A DNA stretch of 37,821 nt from assembly GCA_030426925.1 (NCBI GenBank), contig JAUHXT010000011.1:1-37821 (forward strand), in the 5' to 3' direction. The DNA is from Alphaproteobacteria bacterium (GTDB taxonomy: Bacteria; Pseudomonadota; Alphaproteobacteria; Micavibrionales; Micavibrionaceae). The position numbers and the translations under genes are program-made. Shown here in pieces: positions 10,781 to 23,186 of this stretch. Below the pieces are notes generated by a model, which was not told where the DNA came from, searched no databases, and saw nothing but the letters and a program-made list of their open reading frames with translations. How positions within the stretch are numbered: the stretch's first letter is position 1; every line of letters begins with the position of its first letter.

Positions 10781-11485
10781 TTAAACAGCGGCTTGGCTGG
10801 CTGTCCCTTCCTGCGGATCGCGTAAGACGTAACCGCGGCCCCAGACCGTTTCGATGTAATTATCGCCATCCGTGGCATCTTCCAGCTTTTTACGCAGCTT
10901 GCAGATAAACACGTCGATGATTTTCACTTCCGGTTCGTCCATACCGCCATACAGGTGGTTCAGGAACATTTCCTTGGTCAGCGTCGTGCCCTTACGCAAA
11001 GAAAGCAGCTCGATTATGCCGTACTCTTTGCCGGTAAGGTGCAACGGCTTGCCGTCCACTTCAACGGTGCGGGTATCAAGGTTGACGGCAACACGGCCTG
11101 TTTTAATGATGCTTTGGGCATGCCCCTGTGAGCGGCGGACAATCGCCTGAATACGGGCAATCAACTCACGCTTGTCAAACGGTTTGGTCAGGTAGTCGTC
11201 AGCGCCAAAGCCCAAGCCTTTGATCTTGTTATCCAGTTCGGTAAGGCCGGAAAGAATCAGGATCGGTGTTTCCACCTTGGACGCCCGCAGGCGCTTCAGC
11301 ACTTCGTACCCGTCCATGTCCGGTAACATGAGGTCCAGAATGATGATGTCGTAGTCATATATCTTCCCTAAATCCAGGCCATCCTCACCCAGATCGGTGT
11401 TATCAACGACATATCCTTCGGATTTCAGCATTAACTCAATGCTCTTCGCTGTTGAACTGTCGTCTTCGACCAATAAAACCCGCAT
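10781..11485 (-). CDS. ctrA: Cell-cycle master regulator CtrA (OmpR-type response regulator)
   Basis: Alphaproteobacterial master response regulator controlling the cell cycle and flagellar transcription. 234 aa. The receiver domain (about 1-120) has acidic residues E7, D8 and D9, the phosphoacceptor D51 and the conserved Lys in TKPF. A winged-helix OmpR-type domain follows (about 125-230) with CtrA-like [26 protein letters not shown] and VIWGRGYVL-like segments (here [11 protein letters not shown]). An AAGGA lies 8 bases before the ATG. The 190-base upstream region is AT-rich and has many TTAAC half-sites. It would act on flagellar genes further along this window; SciP, its usual antagonist, is also encoded here. 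Confidence 0.94.
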
Positions 11486-11675
11486 AAAAATAATCCTTAT
11501 TTGTTAATAGTTTAAAAACCCGTATCGCGTTAAACTTTCTTAACAATGTTAACAAATTTTGAAAAAGTTAACAAAAGTTTTTGCTTACTATCCTGTTAAA
11601 ACTTCATAAAATTTTAATTAAATTTGTCATATAGTATAATTAGGAAAAGATATATCTTATGTAATTGAGGTCTAT
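11486..11675. promoter_or_regulatory. Divergent AT-rich control region between ctrA and the lipoprotein gene
   Basis: A strongly AT-rich 190-base spacer between divergent genes. It holds a cluster of CtrA-type half-sites: TTAA at 11531-11534 with TTAAC at 11541-11545 (6-base gap) and GTTAAC at 11549-11554 and 11568-11573. The spacings differ from the canonical TTAA-N7-TTAAC, so direct CtrA binding is only inferred. A TATAAT at 11635-11640 could be the -10 element for the lipoprotein; no good -35 is seen. The lipoprotein start has a GAGG at 11667-11670. Confidence 0.55.
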
Positions 11676-14600
11676 TTGGCGGGTTATAGAACACAAATAA
11701 AGGCCTTCTTGTTGTGCCTTACACTCTTTCTGGTAAGCAGTTGCCTACCGGAAGACAGTACTGCTGTTTCTAACGGCCAGAACCAGACGGTGTCAGCCGC
11801 ACTCTCCCGATCCCCACAGAAAATAGCCGAAGCACAGGCTGTAGCCTTTATGAGCGCTTCCCGAAACATTACCGGACAGGTCGTGACAAGCGCTGGATTT
11901 AGCAATGGGACAATGGCCGCGGGTGAAATCAATTTTGCCGCGATGGGAATTAAAGGAATTCCGGCAAATATGAAGGCCGCGTACTGTAAGGAAACCAAGG
12001 CGGACGGTTCGGTTGTCGGTCAGGTGATATCCTGGATGGATAATGGTGGCGGAACGGCTTTTTCAGTTCAGGGGATTGAACAAAATGCCGGGGAAACCAT
12101 TATGCACAGCATTTTAAAACAATCCGATTCTGTAGACACAGGCATGGCCAGCGGCGGCCAGGTAACCTGGATGGATAAAAGTGGAAATGCATCTCAGACA
12201 ACAAATTTATCACCATGCGGAAACATTAATATTCCAGCCAACACGCCGGTTATTATGTCCCGGAACCTTATCGCCGCGAATGTTACTGATTTAGGTAACG
12301 GCAGTGTCATGGAATACACATCCGAAGCATGCCCGGATGGCGAAATTGGAAGTATTACAATGCGCCGTTGGGTAGCCCAGACGTACACGCAGTTTGCGAA
12401 TGGGGATCCGGCAGAACAATTTGAATACGGCGATTGGGAAGAATTCCAGAACACCTGTATGGAATTCATGGAACAACTGGATACAGGACAGGTAACGATT
12501 GAGGTCTTTGCCAATCAGGCGCCTCTAGGGGAAATGCAGCAAATTGAAATTTCCGAAGTTTTATCGGCGTTAAATAACACAGAGTGTATGGGGGCAACTG
12601 AGCCGCAGGACCCGGACGCCCCTCTGGATACACAAGATGCGCCTGCGCCTGAATGTGATTTTACAAGAACCGCTGAGCGTGAGGAACTGGACAACCCGTA
12701 TGGTAGCGAACTGGAAGTCACCGATGAGATTGTCGATGCCGAAATTGTCACACATGCCTGTCCGATAGGGGATACCACACCTATCACAGGGTACGTTCAA
12801 AACTTTCCCGGACAGGTAGATGTCGGCAGCGGCTGGCAGGGAACAATGGAATTTGCCCGTTACTACCATAATGTGATGAACATGGCTGGTGAGCAGGGGC
12901 AGGAAACCGATTCAAGCTTCCGCGATCAGTGGCAGGGCCACACACTGCTTTGTACAAGAGATGAATTATTGAATATTGAATGTAGCACGGCGTATCCGAA
13001 TTACAGTGCGTCAGGCAACCCGCAGGTAGTATTTATTCCGGTTGATACGACAGGGTACAGTTTCACACGAGAGAATGTCATTGATGGATGGGATGATCCG
13101 ACGAACTTTGTCCCCAATCAGTCATTGCCGAATGATCAGGGGTGGCAGGCAGCCGGCGGGAACTGTAGCTGGAATGAAACAGTCAGTTTTGACAACGTGC
13201 CATCCGGCTATACGCCAACACAGCCGGGCGGAGGAATATACCATAGATTGGTGACGGCTAGTGATCTGAACGTCACGCCTACCCAAGGTCAATGGGTTGG
13301 GGTAACTCCGTCTGTCGGAACACGCACTGATACGAACACGCTGCCTTGCCCGAGCGGTTTTACTGGATCCATAATCGAGACTATAACGTATCGTTCAGTT
13401 GCAGAATTCCCATGGAGCACACCGGTTATTACGAATACGTCTACTACGGACAATAACTGTACATGTACAGCCGAAATCGAATTACGCCAGACACCGACAA
13501 CATGTGCGGATGCATCTTCCGGCATTTTATATGAAGAACGGCAAAGGCAATGTCCGTCCGGTAACTGGGGCGCCTGGATAACACAGGCCAACAGTTGCGC
13601 GGGCATGGGCGGCGACCCGGCAGAATGTGGTCCTGCCGCAGTTCAGCCTTATTCTTCTTTCCCGACAACAGGCCTGTGCAGTTCCGGCACACCTGAAAAC
13701 AGGCGCGAAGCGGTTTCGCCAACAGGAATACCTTTGTTTTTATGGGATTGCAGGCAAGCAGATGGCTCGGTTGCTGCCGGATGTTCGGCGAGAAATATCT
13801 CGACCGCACCATCGGGTAGTGGTGCAACGTGTGGTCCTGCGGCAAATGGAGTCTTTGGTAATCTTACAACATCAGCTCAGTTTTTCGCTACGGCAGAATT
13901 GTGTAGTGCCAATGCAGCCTCTACCAGCGAATCAACAAGACTTGAAAATGGTTTTTATATTTACGAGTGGAGCTGCCAAAACCCCCCATATAGTGCCGCT
14001 TGCGGTTACATGATTCCGGAAAGCTATTTTAACGGCGGTGCGCCAGCTACAGGATCAGGACCGATATGCGGAACGGCTGTGAATACGTGTATTAATGGCG
14101 TGATGCAGGATAGCTGGGATACCGACCGGTATTGGTGGGAGTGCCGTGTAGGTGGCGGCACAGGCGCTTGCGACAGTGATCCCAATTGTGAACATTGCGA
14201 AGCGCCGTTCGGTGCGTCAACGGCAAACTGTGCCGCACAAACCCTGAACGCGAATGGGTGTGCCTATCCGTTCAGCGCAGCAAATCATGGAAACACGCAA
14301 ACTGTGCAAACATCTACTACGGGATTTGTCGGACAGATGAACGCACAATGTTCAAGCGGCAATTGGACAGCAGTAACCTCATCCTGTACGGCAGCCGGAC
14401 CAACTAATCCGGGAGATTGTCCGGCTCAGACGATTACTTGGGGATCTGGGTGTTCCGCTACGATTCCTTCTCATGAAGATGGTTTTTCAGATCGAATTAG
14501 AAGTACAGCCAATGGCGGTGTGACGCGTTATACGTGTTCGTCAGGAACATGGGTCACAAGCGATGAAGAATGTTCAACAATTGAGTTTGGTTGCGGTCCT

Positions 14601-14933
14601 GCAGGTGAAATGACGTTTTCGTCTGCTCCGACAAGTTTGTTATGTGACTCCAGCACGGCGTCAAACATGCGTCGAAATGAGTGGGGAACATACTTATGGG
14701 ATTGTACGGCATCAGATGGAGTAACCCTTATATGTTCAGCTGTGTCTACAGAGCGCTATGATGCATCTTGTGGATCCGCACACAGATCCGGCAGTACATC
14801 TACCCCTGCTTGGGCCACAAGATGTGACACAGGACGCTCTGATAACGTCGTTCAGCAGGGCAGCGGATATTATACATGGATGTGTTTGGGAAGGCACGGC
14901 GGTATCGATGTTTCTTGTACAAGCGCACCTTAG
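11676..14933 (+). CDS. Large cysteine-rich mosaic lipoprotein
   Basis: A 1085-aa predicted secreted lipoprotein of unknown function. The TTG start has a GAGG 5 bases before it. The signal peptide ends in a lipobox (VSSC, lipid-attached Cys at residue 23). The N-terminal half (to about 590) is Gly/Thr/Asn-rich with scattered Cys pairs. The C-terminal half is a mosaic of Cys-rich modules. One type (CG-x-A ... YxW-x-C ... C, about 52 residues) starts near residues 651, 719, 798 (divergent), 973 and 1032. A second type (C ... C ... C-x-S-G-x-W ... C) covers about 595-641, 852-904 and 915-966. Paired cysteines suggest disulfides and an extracytoplasmic surface protein, perhaps an adhesin. Transcribed divergently from ctrA. 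I recall similar CG-x-A modules in other bacterial surface proteins, but no named domain. Confidence 0.72.
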   Translation: MAGYRTQIKAFLLCLTLFLVSSCLPEDSTAVSNGQNQTVSAALSRSPQKIAEAQAVAFMSASRNITGQVVTSAGFSNGTMAAGEINFAAMGIKGIPANMKAAYCKETKADGSVVGQVISWMDNGGGTAFSVQGIEQNAGETIMHSILKQSDSVDTGMASGGQVTWMDKSGNASQTTNLSPCGNINIPANTPVIMSRNLIAANVTDLGNGSVMEYTSEACPDGEIGSITMRRWVAQTYTQFANGDPAEQFEYGDWEEFQNTCMEFMEQLDTGQVTIEVFANQAPLGEMQQIEISEVLSALNNTECMGATEPQDPDAPLDTQDAPAPECDFTRTAEREELDNPYGSELEVTDEIVDAEIVTHACPIGDTTPITGYVQNFPGQVDVGSGWQGTMEFARYYHNVMNMAGEQGQETDSSFRDQWQGHTLLCTRDELLNIECSTAYPNYSASGNPQVVFIPVDTTGYSFTRENVIDGWDDPTNFVPNQSLPNDQGWQAAGGNCSWNETVSFDNVPSGYTPTQPGGGIYHRLVTASDLNVTPTQGQWVGVTPSVGTRTDTNTLPCPSGFTGSIIETITYRSVAEFPWSTPVITNTSTTDNNCTCTAEIELRQTPTTCADASSGILYEERQRQCPSGNWGAWITQANSCAGMGGDPAECGPAAVQPYSSFPTTGLCSSGTPENRREAVSPTGIPLFLWDCRQADGSVAAGCSARNISTAPSGSGATCGPAANGVFGNLTTSAQFFATAELCSANAASTSESTRLENGFYIYEWSCQNPPYSAACGYMIPESYFNGGAPATGSGPICGTAVNTCINGVMQDSWDTDRYWWECRVGGGTGACDSDPNCEHCEAPFGASTANCAAQTLNANGCAYPFSAANHGNTQTVQTSTTGFVGQMNAQCSSGNWTAVTSSCTAAGPTNPGDCPAQTITWGSGCSATIPSHEDGFSDRIRSTANGGVTRYTCSSGTWVTSDEECSTIEFGCGPAGEMTFSSAPTSLLCDSSTASNMRRNEWGTYLWDCTASDGVTLICSAVSTERYDASCGSAHRSGSTSTPAWATRCDTGRSDNVVQQGSGYYTWMCLGRHGGIDVSCTSAP

Positions 14934-14992
14934 TCCTGAATTTTAATTTGTTTTCTTTCATCCAGCCACCGGTTTCGTGATACCCTGTAGCT

Positions 14993-16402
14993 ATGGATCG
15001 TCTGGCTGAAAAGGCGCTTGCCGCCATTGACCCCCTTGTTGACCATGAAGTTTACGGATCGGTGACGAAAGTCCTGGGGCTTCTGGTGGAAATCACAGGC
15101 TTCGGCAATGATTTGTCGATTGGCTCGGTCGTGCATTTGCGCCCGAATGACAAAACGGATATTCCCTGTGAAGTCGTAGGGTTTAAGGATAAAAACGCCC
15201 TGTTAATGCCCTTCGGAACACTTGAAGGGGTCGGGCTGGGATGCAAGGCGGTGATCCAGAAACACGCACCGTTTGTTTGCCCTGATGATAAGTGGCTGGG
15301 GCGTGTTATTAACGGGCTGGCCCGCCCGATTGACGGCAAGGGTCCGCTGCCGCAGGGCGCGCATGCTATTCCTCTCAAAAACAAGGCGCCCGCACCGCAC
15401 GCCCGCAAAAGGATCGGTCAGAAGCTGGATCTGGGAGTGCGTTCGGTAAACACATTTTTATCGACCTGTGAAGGCCAGCGGATGGGCATTTTCTCCGGTT
15501 CCGGTGTCGGTAAATCGGTGCTGCTGTCCATGATGGCGCGTTATACCGAAGCGGACGTGTCGGTTATCGGGTTGGTCGGAGAACGTGGTCGTGAGGTACA
15601 GGAATTTTTGGAAGACGATTTGGGCGAAGACGGTCTGGCGCGTTCCGTTGTGATTGTCGCAACCGGGGACGAACCCGCATTGATGCGTCGGCAGGCCGCA
15701 TACGTCACACTGGCAGTCGCCGAATATTTCCGCCAACAGGGCAAACAGGTATTGTGCCTGATTGACTCTGTAACCCGTTTCGCCATGGCGCAGCGTGAAA
15801 TAGGGTTGAGCGCGGGCGAACCGCCGACATCGAAAGGCTACCCGCCAACGACGTTCGGCGAACTGGCAAGACTGCTGGAACGTGCAGGGCCGGGCGTACA
15901 GGATGAAGGCGCGATCACCGGACTGTTTTCCGTACTGGTCGAAGGCGACGATCATAACGAACCCATTTCTGATGCTGTGCGCGGTATTGTTGACGGACAC
16001 ATCGTGATGGAACGGGAAATCGCCGACCGTGGGCGGTATCCCGCGATCAATGTTTTGCGCTCCGTTTCACGTTCGATGCCCGCGTGCCTGGACGCACGGC
16101 AAAATGCGATTGTCACACGGGCAAAACAACTGATCAGCCGGTATGAGGATATGGCTGAACTGATCCGGCTGGGCGCATACCGCAAGGGCAGCGATCCGGA
16201 AGTAGATGAAGCGATTGCCCTGTATCCGCATTTCGAAGAATTTTTGAAGCAGAACAAGGAAGAAAGCACGACCATTGATGAAGCCTTTGCCATGCTGGGC
16301 GCTATCCTTGGCATGCCGTATGGCGATGGTCAGATGGATGACATGCAGCCGCAGCAAGGCGCGCGCCGCATGCCCCAGCGCGGGGAGGTAAGACGTGGCT
16401 AA
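14993..16402 (+). CDS. fliI: Flagellar type III export ATPase FliI
   Basis: The ATPase that energises and unloads chaperones during flagellar protein export at the cytoplasmic face of the basal body. 469 aa. Walker A GSGVGKS (about residues 168-174), Walker B segment [18 protein letters not shown] and the FliI-typical [12 protein letters not shown] loop are intact. The [14 protein letters not shown] and [16 protein letters not shown] segments are also family hallmarks. No strong Shine-Dalgarno precedes the ATG. It overlaps fliJ by 8 bases, so the two are coupled, as expected for functional partners. Confidence 0.96.
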
Positions 16403-21322: not shown

Positions 21323-22309
21323 ATGGCGCTGGACCTGGAAACATATATCGGCAGGGAAAAGGAAGCGGACGGATACGATATCCGCAAAGTAAAGGCCGCC
21401 CTGAACCGCCTGGGCTATTACACACCGGATGAAACGGCAGGTATAACGCAGGAGGCGGAGCCCGCGTTTTTCACCGCGTTAAAGGCGTTCCAGCGCCAAA
21501 ACGGGATAGAACCGGACGGCAGGATAGGGCCGGGAAGTTTGAGCGAACGCGCCCTGAACGACGCGGTAAAAACCCATAACGTGAACTCACTGTTTGCCGG
21601 CTGGTATATCTGGCGCACGGTGGGGGATGAAAAAGTGCGCGGCAACCATGCACAGCGCGAAGCGCGTATTTTCTCATGGGACAACCCGCCCGATGGCGGC
21701 CACCCCGGCGAAGATTACAACTGCCGCTGCTGGGCGGAAGCTTACTATCCCGCCTCTGCCGAACACCGCTCCCGCGCGATGGAGTTGCGCCAAAAAGCAG
21801 CCGCAAGGCAAAAAATTGCCGAACAGGGTTTCCACGGTTTGAACAATGAAGGATTAAACGACCTTCCCATTGCGCTTGACGCGATCAACCCTACCATCAG
21901 CCCGCTGGATTTGATTGGACCGGGTGGCATAGCAACGAAAGGGACTGCTGCTACACTTATGCGGCAATTAACAGCCAGATCGCGAGATGTCAGTTGGATT
22001 GAAAAGGCGGCGAGAAAGAAGCTACAGCACGCTTTTAAACATGCTAAGGCATTTGGTATTAAAGGGAATCCAAGTAATAAAACGTTAGAGCAGTTCAGAA
22101 AAGAACTAATAAATCATGTCAGATCACCTGATACGCGTGTTATAAAGGGAACATATCATAAGCAGCCAGTGACACATTATTATAACAATAAGACAAAACT
22201 AAATGTCATGCGTGACCAAAACGGTAAACTCTCGTCTGGATGGAAGTTAAGACCTAAGCAAAGGTTTCACATAGAAAAAGATGGAAATATAGGCGGATCA
22301 AAAAAATGA
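21323..22309 (+). CDS. Polymorphic toxin: peptidoglycan-binding + MuF-like + colicin-D-like tRNase
   Basis: A 328-aa modular toxin. Residues about 15-65 form a peptidoglycan-binding-1 domain (IRKVKAALNRLGYY ... FFTALKAFQRQNGIEPDG). Residues about 92-140 match the end of the phage MuF/minor head protein domain (WRTVGDEKVRGNH ... DNPPDGG ... NCRCWAEA), the scaffold of a known class of phage-encoded polymorphic toxins. After a linker (about 141-225), the C-terminus matches the tRNA-cleaving domain of colicin D: FKHAKAFGI with catalytic-type Lys239-His240, then FRKELINHV, GTYHKQP and SGWKL with Ser305 and Trp307. The catalytic-type residues appear intact. AAGGA precedes the start by 6 bases. There is no signal peptide. 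The DNA becomes AT-rich near 21900, where the tip begins, a sign of separate origin. The next gene overlaps its stop (ATGA). Confidence 0.85.
   Translation: MALDLETYIGREKEADGYDIRKVKAALNRLGYYTPDETAGITQEAEPAFFTALKAFQRQNGIEPDGRIGPGSLSERALNDAVKTHNVNSLFAGWYIWRTVGDEKVRGNHAQREARIFSWDNPPDGGHPGEDYNCRCWAEAYYPASAEHRSRAMELRQKAAARQKIAEQGFHGLNNEGLNDLPIALDAINPTISPLDLIGPGGIATKGTAATLMRQLTARSRDVSWIEKAARKKLQHAFKHAKAFGIKGNPSNKTLEQFRKELINHVRSPDTRVIKGTYHKQPVTHYYNNKTKLNVMRDQNGKLSSGWKLRPKQRFHIEKDGNIGGSKK
21724..21796 (+). repeat. Toxin junction repeat, copy 1 (inside the complete toxin gene)
   Basis: The 73 bases encode the end of the MuF-like segment and the linker start (CRCWAEAYY to MELRQK). Nearly the same sequence recurs at 22592-22655 and 23472-23544, each time directly downstream of an immunity gene. 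It marks the boundary where toxin tips are joined to the common N-terminus. Confidence 0.88.
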
Positions 22310-22587: not shown

Positions 22588-22655
22588 CGCACCGCTGCTG
22601 GGCGGAAGCTTACTTTCCTGCCTCTGCCGAACACCGCGCCCGCGCGATGGAGTTG
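22525..22655 (+). repeat. 131-bp direct repeat, copy A (immunity C-terminus + toxin junction)
   Basis: Identical to 23405-23535 except for four mismatches (97%). It covers the last 20 codons of immunity gene 1, the 4-base gap, and the CRCWAEAY...MEL junction. The two copies are in direct orientation 880 bases apart, with cassette 2 between them. This is the expected footprint of recombination-driven cassette insertion, loss or exchange. Confidence 0.92.
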
Positions 22656-23186
22656 ATGGAGCGCAGGCAGGTGCGTGAAACCATCCGCCCCGGCAAACTT
22701 TCTATCCCATCGCCGTCTGTTCAGTCTCTATTAAAAGAAATAATGGTTGATACAACCCCGTGGGACGGAGACAATCCCCTCAATCCTCTTGCCGGCGGTG
22801 GAGGTGGTGGTAGGGGAAGGTTACGTGCCAGAAAAAGACGCAAAGCTCAGTTTAAAGAAAACGCAGACAGTCTGCGTAATCCAGATTGGATTTGGAATGG
22901 ACCTAAAAATAATTTACAGCACACTTTTAAGCATGCCGAACATTTTGGAATAAAAGGTCCTATGAATAAACAAAACTTAAAAGAACTTCAAAAAGCTTTG
23001 GAAAAACATATAAAATCACCTGATACAAAAATTATCGCAGGGGAGTATCAAAGACAGCCTGCAATACATTACTACAATGATGTTACGAAGTTAAATGTAA
23101 TACGCAGACCGACCGGGGAATTATGGTCAGGCTGGAGATTAAGTCCTGAAAAGCAGTTTCATATGAAAAAAGACGGAAGAATATAG
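22647..23186 (+). CDS. Orphan colicin-D-like toxin tip (cassette 2), no own N-terminus
   Basis: A second toxin tip, 179 aa if read from ATG 22647. In-frame homology to the parent toxin junction extends upstream (RCWAEAYFPASAEH from about 22593) without a start codon, so the cassette lacks the peptidoglycan-binding and MuF-like parts. It has its own linker (with a GGGGGG stretch), then a colicin-D-like domain: FKHAEHFGI with the catalytic-type His at residue 96, LQKALEKHI, GEYQRQP, and SGWRL. It is diverged from the tip of the first toxin. Such orphan cassettes are usually silent until recombined with a full-length toxin. Whether it is translated is unknown; no convincing Shine-Dalgarno is seen. 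Followed at 2 bases by an immunity gene. Confidence 0.78.
   Translation: MELMERRQVRETIRPGKLSIPSPSVQSLLKEIMVDTTPWDGDNPLNPLAGGGGGGRGRLRARKRRKAQFKENADSLRNPDWIWNGPKNNLQHTFKHAEHFGIKGPMNKQNLKELQKALEKHIKSPDTKIIAGEYQRQPAIHYYNDVTKLNVIRRPTGELWSGWRLSPEKQFHMKKDGRI

Follow-up and report, generated by a model that had tools for sequence, protein, structure and literature searches.

The genome paper of M. aeruginosavorus ARL-13 describes eight prepilin-type proteins encoded in three operons and suggests pili as an aid to adhesion (PMC3189940). Exchange of C-terminal ends of the kind considered below is among the features described for polymorphic toxin systems (PMC3482391). A C-terminal toxin domain, a pre-toxin processing domain and an adjacent immunity gene, the parts by which such systems are recognised, were looked for in the protein described here and none was found. 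That protein is encoded in the window, by which we mean the whole stretch of 37,821 nucleotides that was analysed, from a relative of the bacterium-eating Micavibrio. ARL-13, a proven epibiotic predator, is one of the genomes searched (G064), so the taxonomic family of the window includes a proven predator.

The lipoprotein and its cysteine-rich modules

The lipoprotein gene occupies 11676..14933 on the plus strand, with TTG as its start codon and GAGG upstream, and encodes 1085 residues, of which 48 are cysteines. The N-terminus, MAGYRTQIKAFLLCLTLFLVSSC, was read by eye as a lipoprotein signal peptide (11676..11744, +) with the lipobox VSSC at residues 20-23, ending in Cys23, as in bacterial lipoproteins. 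The preliminary description had placed a lipobox ahead of the modules, which is where it lies, and had called the lipoprotein giant, too strong a word for a protein of this length. Leucine at the +2 position after the lipobox cysteine fits the sorting rule for the outer membrane, and outer-membrane sorting, surface exposure, disulfide pairing and binding are all four taken here as predicted properties of the lipoprotein. Searches with the full-length protein found no family in Pfam or NCBIfam, even at E 10, nothing credible among PDB sequences, and no match in PHROGs.

The N-terminal domain (about residues 23-560; 11742..13355, +) is followed by two cysteine elements (residues 558-595 and 597-641; 13347..13598, +) of the CPxGxxG and RxRxCPSGNWGAW type and then by seven recognisable modules. 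The protein contains five CGxA motifs (residues 651, 719, 798, 973, and 1032) and three CxSGxW motifs (residues 626, 892, and 954); when residues 580-1085 were shuffled 20,000 times, five CGxA (mean 0.42) or three CxSGxW (mean 0.015) never arose. Type A modules, with about 50 residues and four cysteines, follow the pattern CGxA...C...WxC...C, and type B modules, with about 53 residues and also four cysteines, follow C...C...CxxGxW...C. An A-module profile of 17 rows, four of them from the window itself, on which all counts of type A given here rest, matched four window modules at E 2e-15 to 3e-10, namely A1 (residues 651-704; 13626..13787), A2 (719-776; 13830..14003), A4 (973-1021; 14592..14738), and A5 (1032-1082; 14769..14921), all on the plus strand. 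A3 (798-832; 14067..14171, +) is a short variant below the profile threshold that was assigned by eye and resembles short modules in L009. The B profile identified B1 (852-904; 14229..14387, +) and B2 (915-966; 14418..14573, +). The CxSGxW motif at residue 626 lies within the cysteine elements, where it belongs to a separate element, C...RxRxCPSGNWGAW...C, and there is no B module at that place. The initial count of about five CGxA modules thus holds, four by profile and the short one by eye, and the profile search recovered both families; the three proposed CxSGxW modules are reduced to just two in the window, and strict alternation was rejected, the actual order being A A a B B A A, with a for the short A. 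Cysteine and tryptophan spacing is conserved within each type, as had been noted, and not across A and B.

The pairs A4-A5 (residues 972-1085) and B1-B2 (residues 850-968) were modelled with AlphaFold, each folded separately because MAFFT put B rows on A columns in joint alignments. Both models are beta-rich, with a mean pLDDT of 91.8 for A4-A5 and 90.6 for B1-B2, and the pTM values of 0.63 and 0.53 make the mutual placement of modules unreliable. In the model of the A module, three strands come after a short loop or helical turn, whereas the B module has first two strands and then three. Because the three-stranded part carries the last two cysteines in both types, a distant link between A and B stays conceivable. 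The predictions support an exported lipoprotein that would bear extracellular-type, disulfide-rich folded modules.

The structural leads for the two types also differ. Most of the top Foldseek matches of the A pair were cyanovirin or microvirin, of the cyanovirin-N homology lectins, with the best at E 0.07, TM 0.23, and rmsd above 10 Å, which is not significant; Pfam at E up to 10 gave no match to these lectins in the lipoprotein, and filing A under cyanovirin was rejected. The B module resembles fibronectin type I in having two strands and then three, with four cysteines, and fibronectin type I pairs were the top PDB fold matches of the B pair (probability 0.75, TM to target 0.42), at a non-significant E of 0.25. 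The cysteine spacing of fibronectin type I differs from that of the B module, Pfam gave no match to it in the lipoprotein at E up to 10, and filing B there was likewise rejected. A viral fold search gave a best E of 0.01, to a phage protein with the name CHB_HEX_C.

A and B had been proposed to be diverged copies of one fold. Comparison of the two profiles gave a probability of 1.6%, and homology by sequence was rejected since the profiles are blind to each other. Given this and the different strand layouts, a single duplicated fold is unsupported; the structure predictions suggested as a check gave confident beta-rich models of differing strand layout, which leaves the idea unsupported rather than refuted. 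The DNA is almost without internal repeats (longest match 26 nt at 81%), which argues against recent tandem expansion. A1 and A4 reach 49% in a pairwise protein alignment, A4 being marginally nearer A1, and A1 scores about equally against siblings and foreign modules, with a slight edge for the foreign ones, whereas the best-scoring partners of A2 and A5 are found in other organisms and not among their siblings, a pattern that does not support duplication and diversification in place. As read from the sequence, the array is old or assembled, with no recent expansion.

Relatives of the modules and of the N-terminal domain

Of the 142 genomes of the order, 12 contain type A, as do 6 of the 385 in the sample of the class, the window's genome included each time, the samples being sampled species genomes with many fragmented assemblies. 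A search of genome contigs with a tighter, less diverse set of A modules returned at least 126 candidate stretches encoding type A relatives, from which 78 loci were kept. As labelled in their records, these come from Alpha-, Beta-, Gamma-, and Deltaproteobacteria, Nitrospirae, several Patescibacteria groups, Verrucomicrobia, and others. The partner domains of the A proteins (laminin-G/ConA-like, Lcl_C, fn3, NHL, polysaccharide-lyase, pro-kumamolisin, and OmpA) are all typical of secreted or surface proteins, and up to 15 modules occur in one chain. A Micavibrio protein (L164:2554-6825) carries twelve A modules and a C-terminal OmpA and may be a peptidoglycan-tethered array. The type A module had no match in Pfam, NCBIfam, or PDB sequences, plasmid and phage searches gave no matches, a viral scan matched two loci, and a literature search on the module found nothing relevant. 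Although widespread in secreted bacterial proteins, type A is absent from the domain libraries searched.

Type B is rarer than A, occurring in 6 of 142 genomes of the order. Apart from the window protein, four proteins were found to combine A and B, three from G018 and one from G070, the A/B mosaics being at L080 and L087. One of the G018 proteins has an N_methyl prepilin N-terminus and a PT-HINT C-terminus, both exceeding the Pfam cut-offs, and a prepilin motif is present in the G070 protein. The protein at L080:5938-10158 has 1,406 residues, with a prepilin N-terminus, ten B modules, two A modules, and a C-terminal PT-HINT.

A proteins lie beside, or are fused to, prepilin-type proteins in half of the 12 genomes with A modules (G003, G018, G104, G070, G022, and ARL-13). 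No prepilin link was seen in G025, G028, G030, G013, and G105 within the DNA examined, which is partly cut by contig ends, and in the window's genome, the twelfth, no prepilin gene adjoins the lipoprotein gene. Outside the order no prepilin link was seen: a prepilin-like gene adjoins only two of the 78 loci, and these correspond to G104 and G003. The window protein shares arrays of multiple A and B modules with the prepilin-linked mosaics (L080, L087) and A modules with the A proteins of prepilin operons (L079, L081, L088). This group is exported as prepilin-like proteins or via ordinary signal peptides, whereas the window protein is a lipoprotein, and two L080 proteins end in Hint, unlike the window protein.

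The N-terminal domain belongs to a family of lipoproteins of the same order (L002, L003, L004, L006, L008-L010, L199-L203, and L207), with a pairwise E of 8.5e-22 to G035 and 22 invariant columns in a 7-row alignment. The profile built from it, A7, has the window among its seven rows and matches the window protein at E 7e-195. Members share the lipobox and an alignable stretch of about 540 residues in which cysteines are conserved; identity to the window protein is about 18-26% in those that were aligned, and some members carry A modules. Ten of the 142 genomes of the order have the domain by this profile, and the class sample added none. In the family of the window, only the window's genome has it among those searched, so the lipoprotein gene is no core predation gene. 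The C-termini of the members differ, with A modules only, Hint (L010 by Pfam, and by eye L207 and L200), a vWA-like end (L203, by eye), or unrelated ends. Two genes of G037 (L199 and L207) share about 1,350 nt of 100% identical DNA and then diverge abruptly, one ending Hint-like, and two copies in G030 are near-identical across their whole shared length. G037 and G030 are draft assemblies, and the comparison suggests that C-terminal ends may have been exchanged among family members.

The interval between ctrA and fliI

A ctrA-like response regulator gene (10781..11485, -) forms the left flank of the insertion, and 59 nt past the lipoprotein stop begins a gene for a fliI-like flagellar ATPase (14993..16402, +). 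fliI is the conserved partner from which ctrA diverges: of the 50 genomes with both genes on one contig, 49 have them as divergent neighbours. The gap between them is below 300 nt in 27 of these genomes and 600 nt or more in 20, and measures 3,507 nt in the window (11486-14992). All 20 gaps of at least 600 nt (L059-L078) were read and none holds this lipoprotein; the cargo of the larger gaps consists of unrelated genes, by eye for example solute-binding-like, TPR-like, and response-regulator-like. This cargo varies between genera, so the lipoprotein gene has been inserted where gene content is variable. The window gap has no TTAA-N7-TTAA site, the CtrA consensus, and a promoter scan of the gap did not rise above chance. 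The preliminary description had taken the divergence from ctrA as a hint of cell-cycle timing, a proposal rejected here because fliI is the conserved partner, the lipoprotein gene is inserted where other genomes have unrelated cargo, and the CtrA site is absent. Neither cell-cycle timing nor a role in predation is supported by the position.

Elsewhere in the window, two neighbouring genes on the plus strand (21323-22309 and 22647-23186) lie in a low-GC patch (0.41-0.43) and both end in Colicin_D (Pfam E 3.5e-16 and 3.2e-18, respectively), the former also having PG_binding_1 and Phage_Mu_F domains. The pair are possible antibacterial toxin genes.

Possible functions of the lipoprotein

We give about an even chance to an outer-membrane lipoprotein acting as a displayed binding protein or adhesin. 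The lipid on Cys23 would anchor the protein in the outer membrane, the order-typical N-terminal domain, about 540 residues long, would serve as a base, and in the C-terminal 435 residues five A and two B modules, beta-rich, stabilised by disulfides and each folding on its own, would line up to offer another cell, a glycan, or the matrix surfaces to bind. Binding at the cell surface is the likeliest role because modules of a secreted type are combined with a predicted outer-membrane lipid anchor and with a pilus context in close relatives, and an adhesin-like role would fit the protein company that such modules keep. The lipobox and its +2 leucine, the confident beta-rich models, the A/B mosaics elsewhere, and the conserved base with a variable C-terminus all favour this reading, while outer-membrane lipoproteins may also face the periplasm, which counts against surface display, and the lectin leads weigh against binding in being non-significant. 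A bolder version, in which A is an undescribed multi-phylum glycan-binding module and the pilus and lipoprotein arrays of Micavibrio-type predators, with their exchangeable tips, recognise prey, would be a long shot.

The modules could instead merely extend or stiffen an envelope lipoprotein, perhaps a periplasmic one, as a passive stalk or spacer with no specific binding. A modules are often terminal or interdomain in unrelated secreted proteins, in the manner of linkers (the pro-kumamolisin protein of L137 and the OmpA-tethered one of L164), and the ligand-like structural matches are all non-significant; the well conserved tryptophans and glycines and the use of two unrelated module types nevertheless seem to exceed what spacing demands, although a structural need could explain both, and we regard a stalk as unlikely. 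It is more doubtful still that the protein is a polymorphic effector carrier, a lipoprotein base displaying exchangeable C-termini, some of them cleaved by Hint, as in polymorphic toxin systems. The relatives with Hint ends, among them L080 by Pfam, and the abruptly diverging G037 pair point in that direction, but this pair may be an assembly artefact, and the window protein lacks both a Hint domain and a toxin-like end, while the gene that follows it is fliI instead of a small immunity-like one. The short distance to fliI, the shared orientation, and the lack of a detected terminator-like site between the two genes would suit membership in a flagellar or CtrA regulon, which we consider very improbable, as the same gap holds unrelated genes in other genera, is often long, and in the window is devoid of the CtrA site.

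Whichever role applies, a small disulfide module is common in secreted proteins across phyla, yet unmodelled in the libraries searched. The A proteins of the ARL-13 prepilin operon are concrete candidates for the means by which an epibiotic predator may keep hold of prey.
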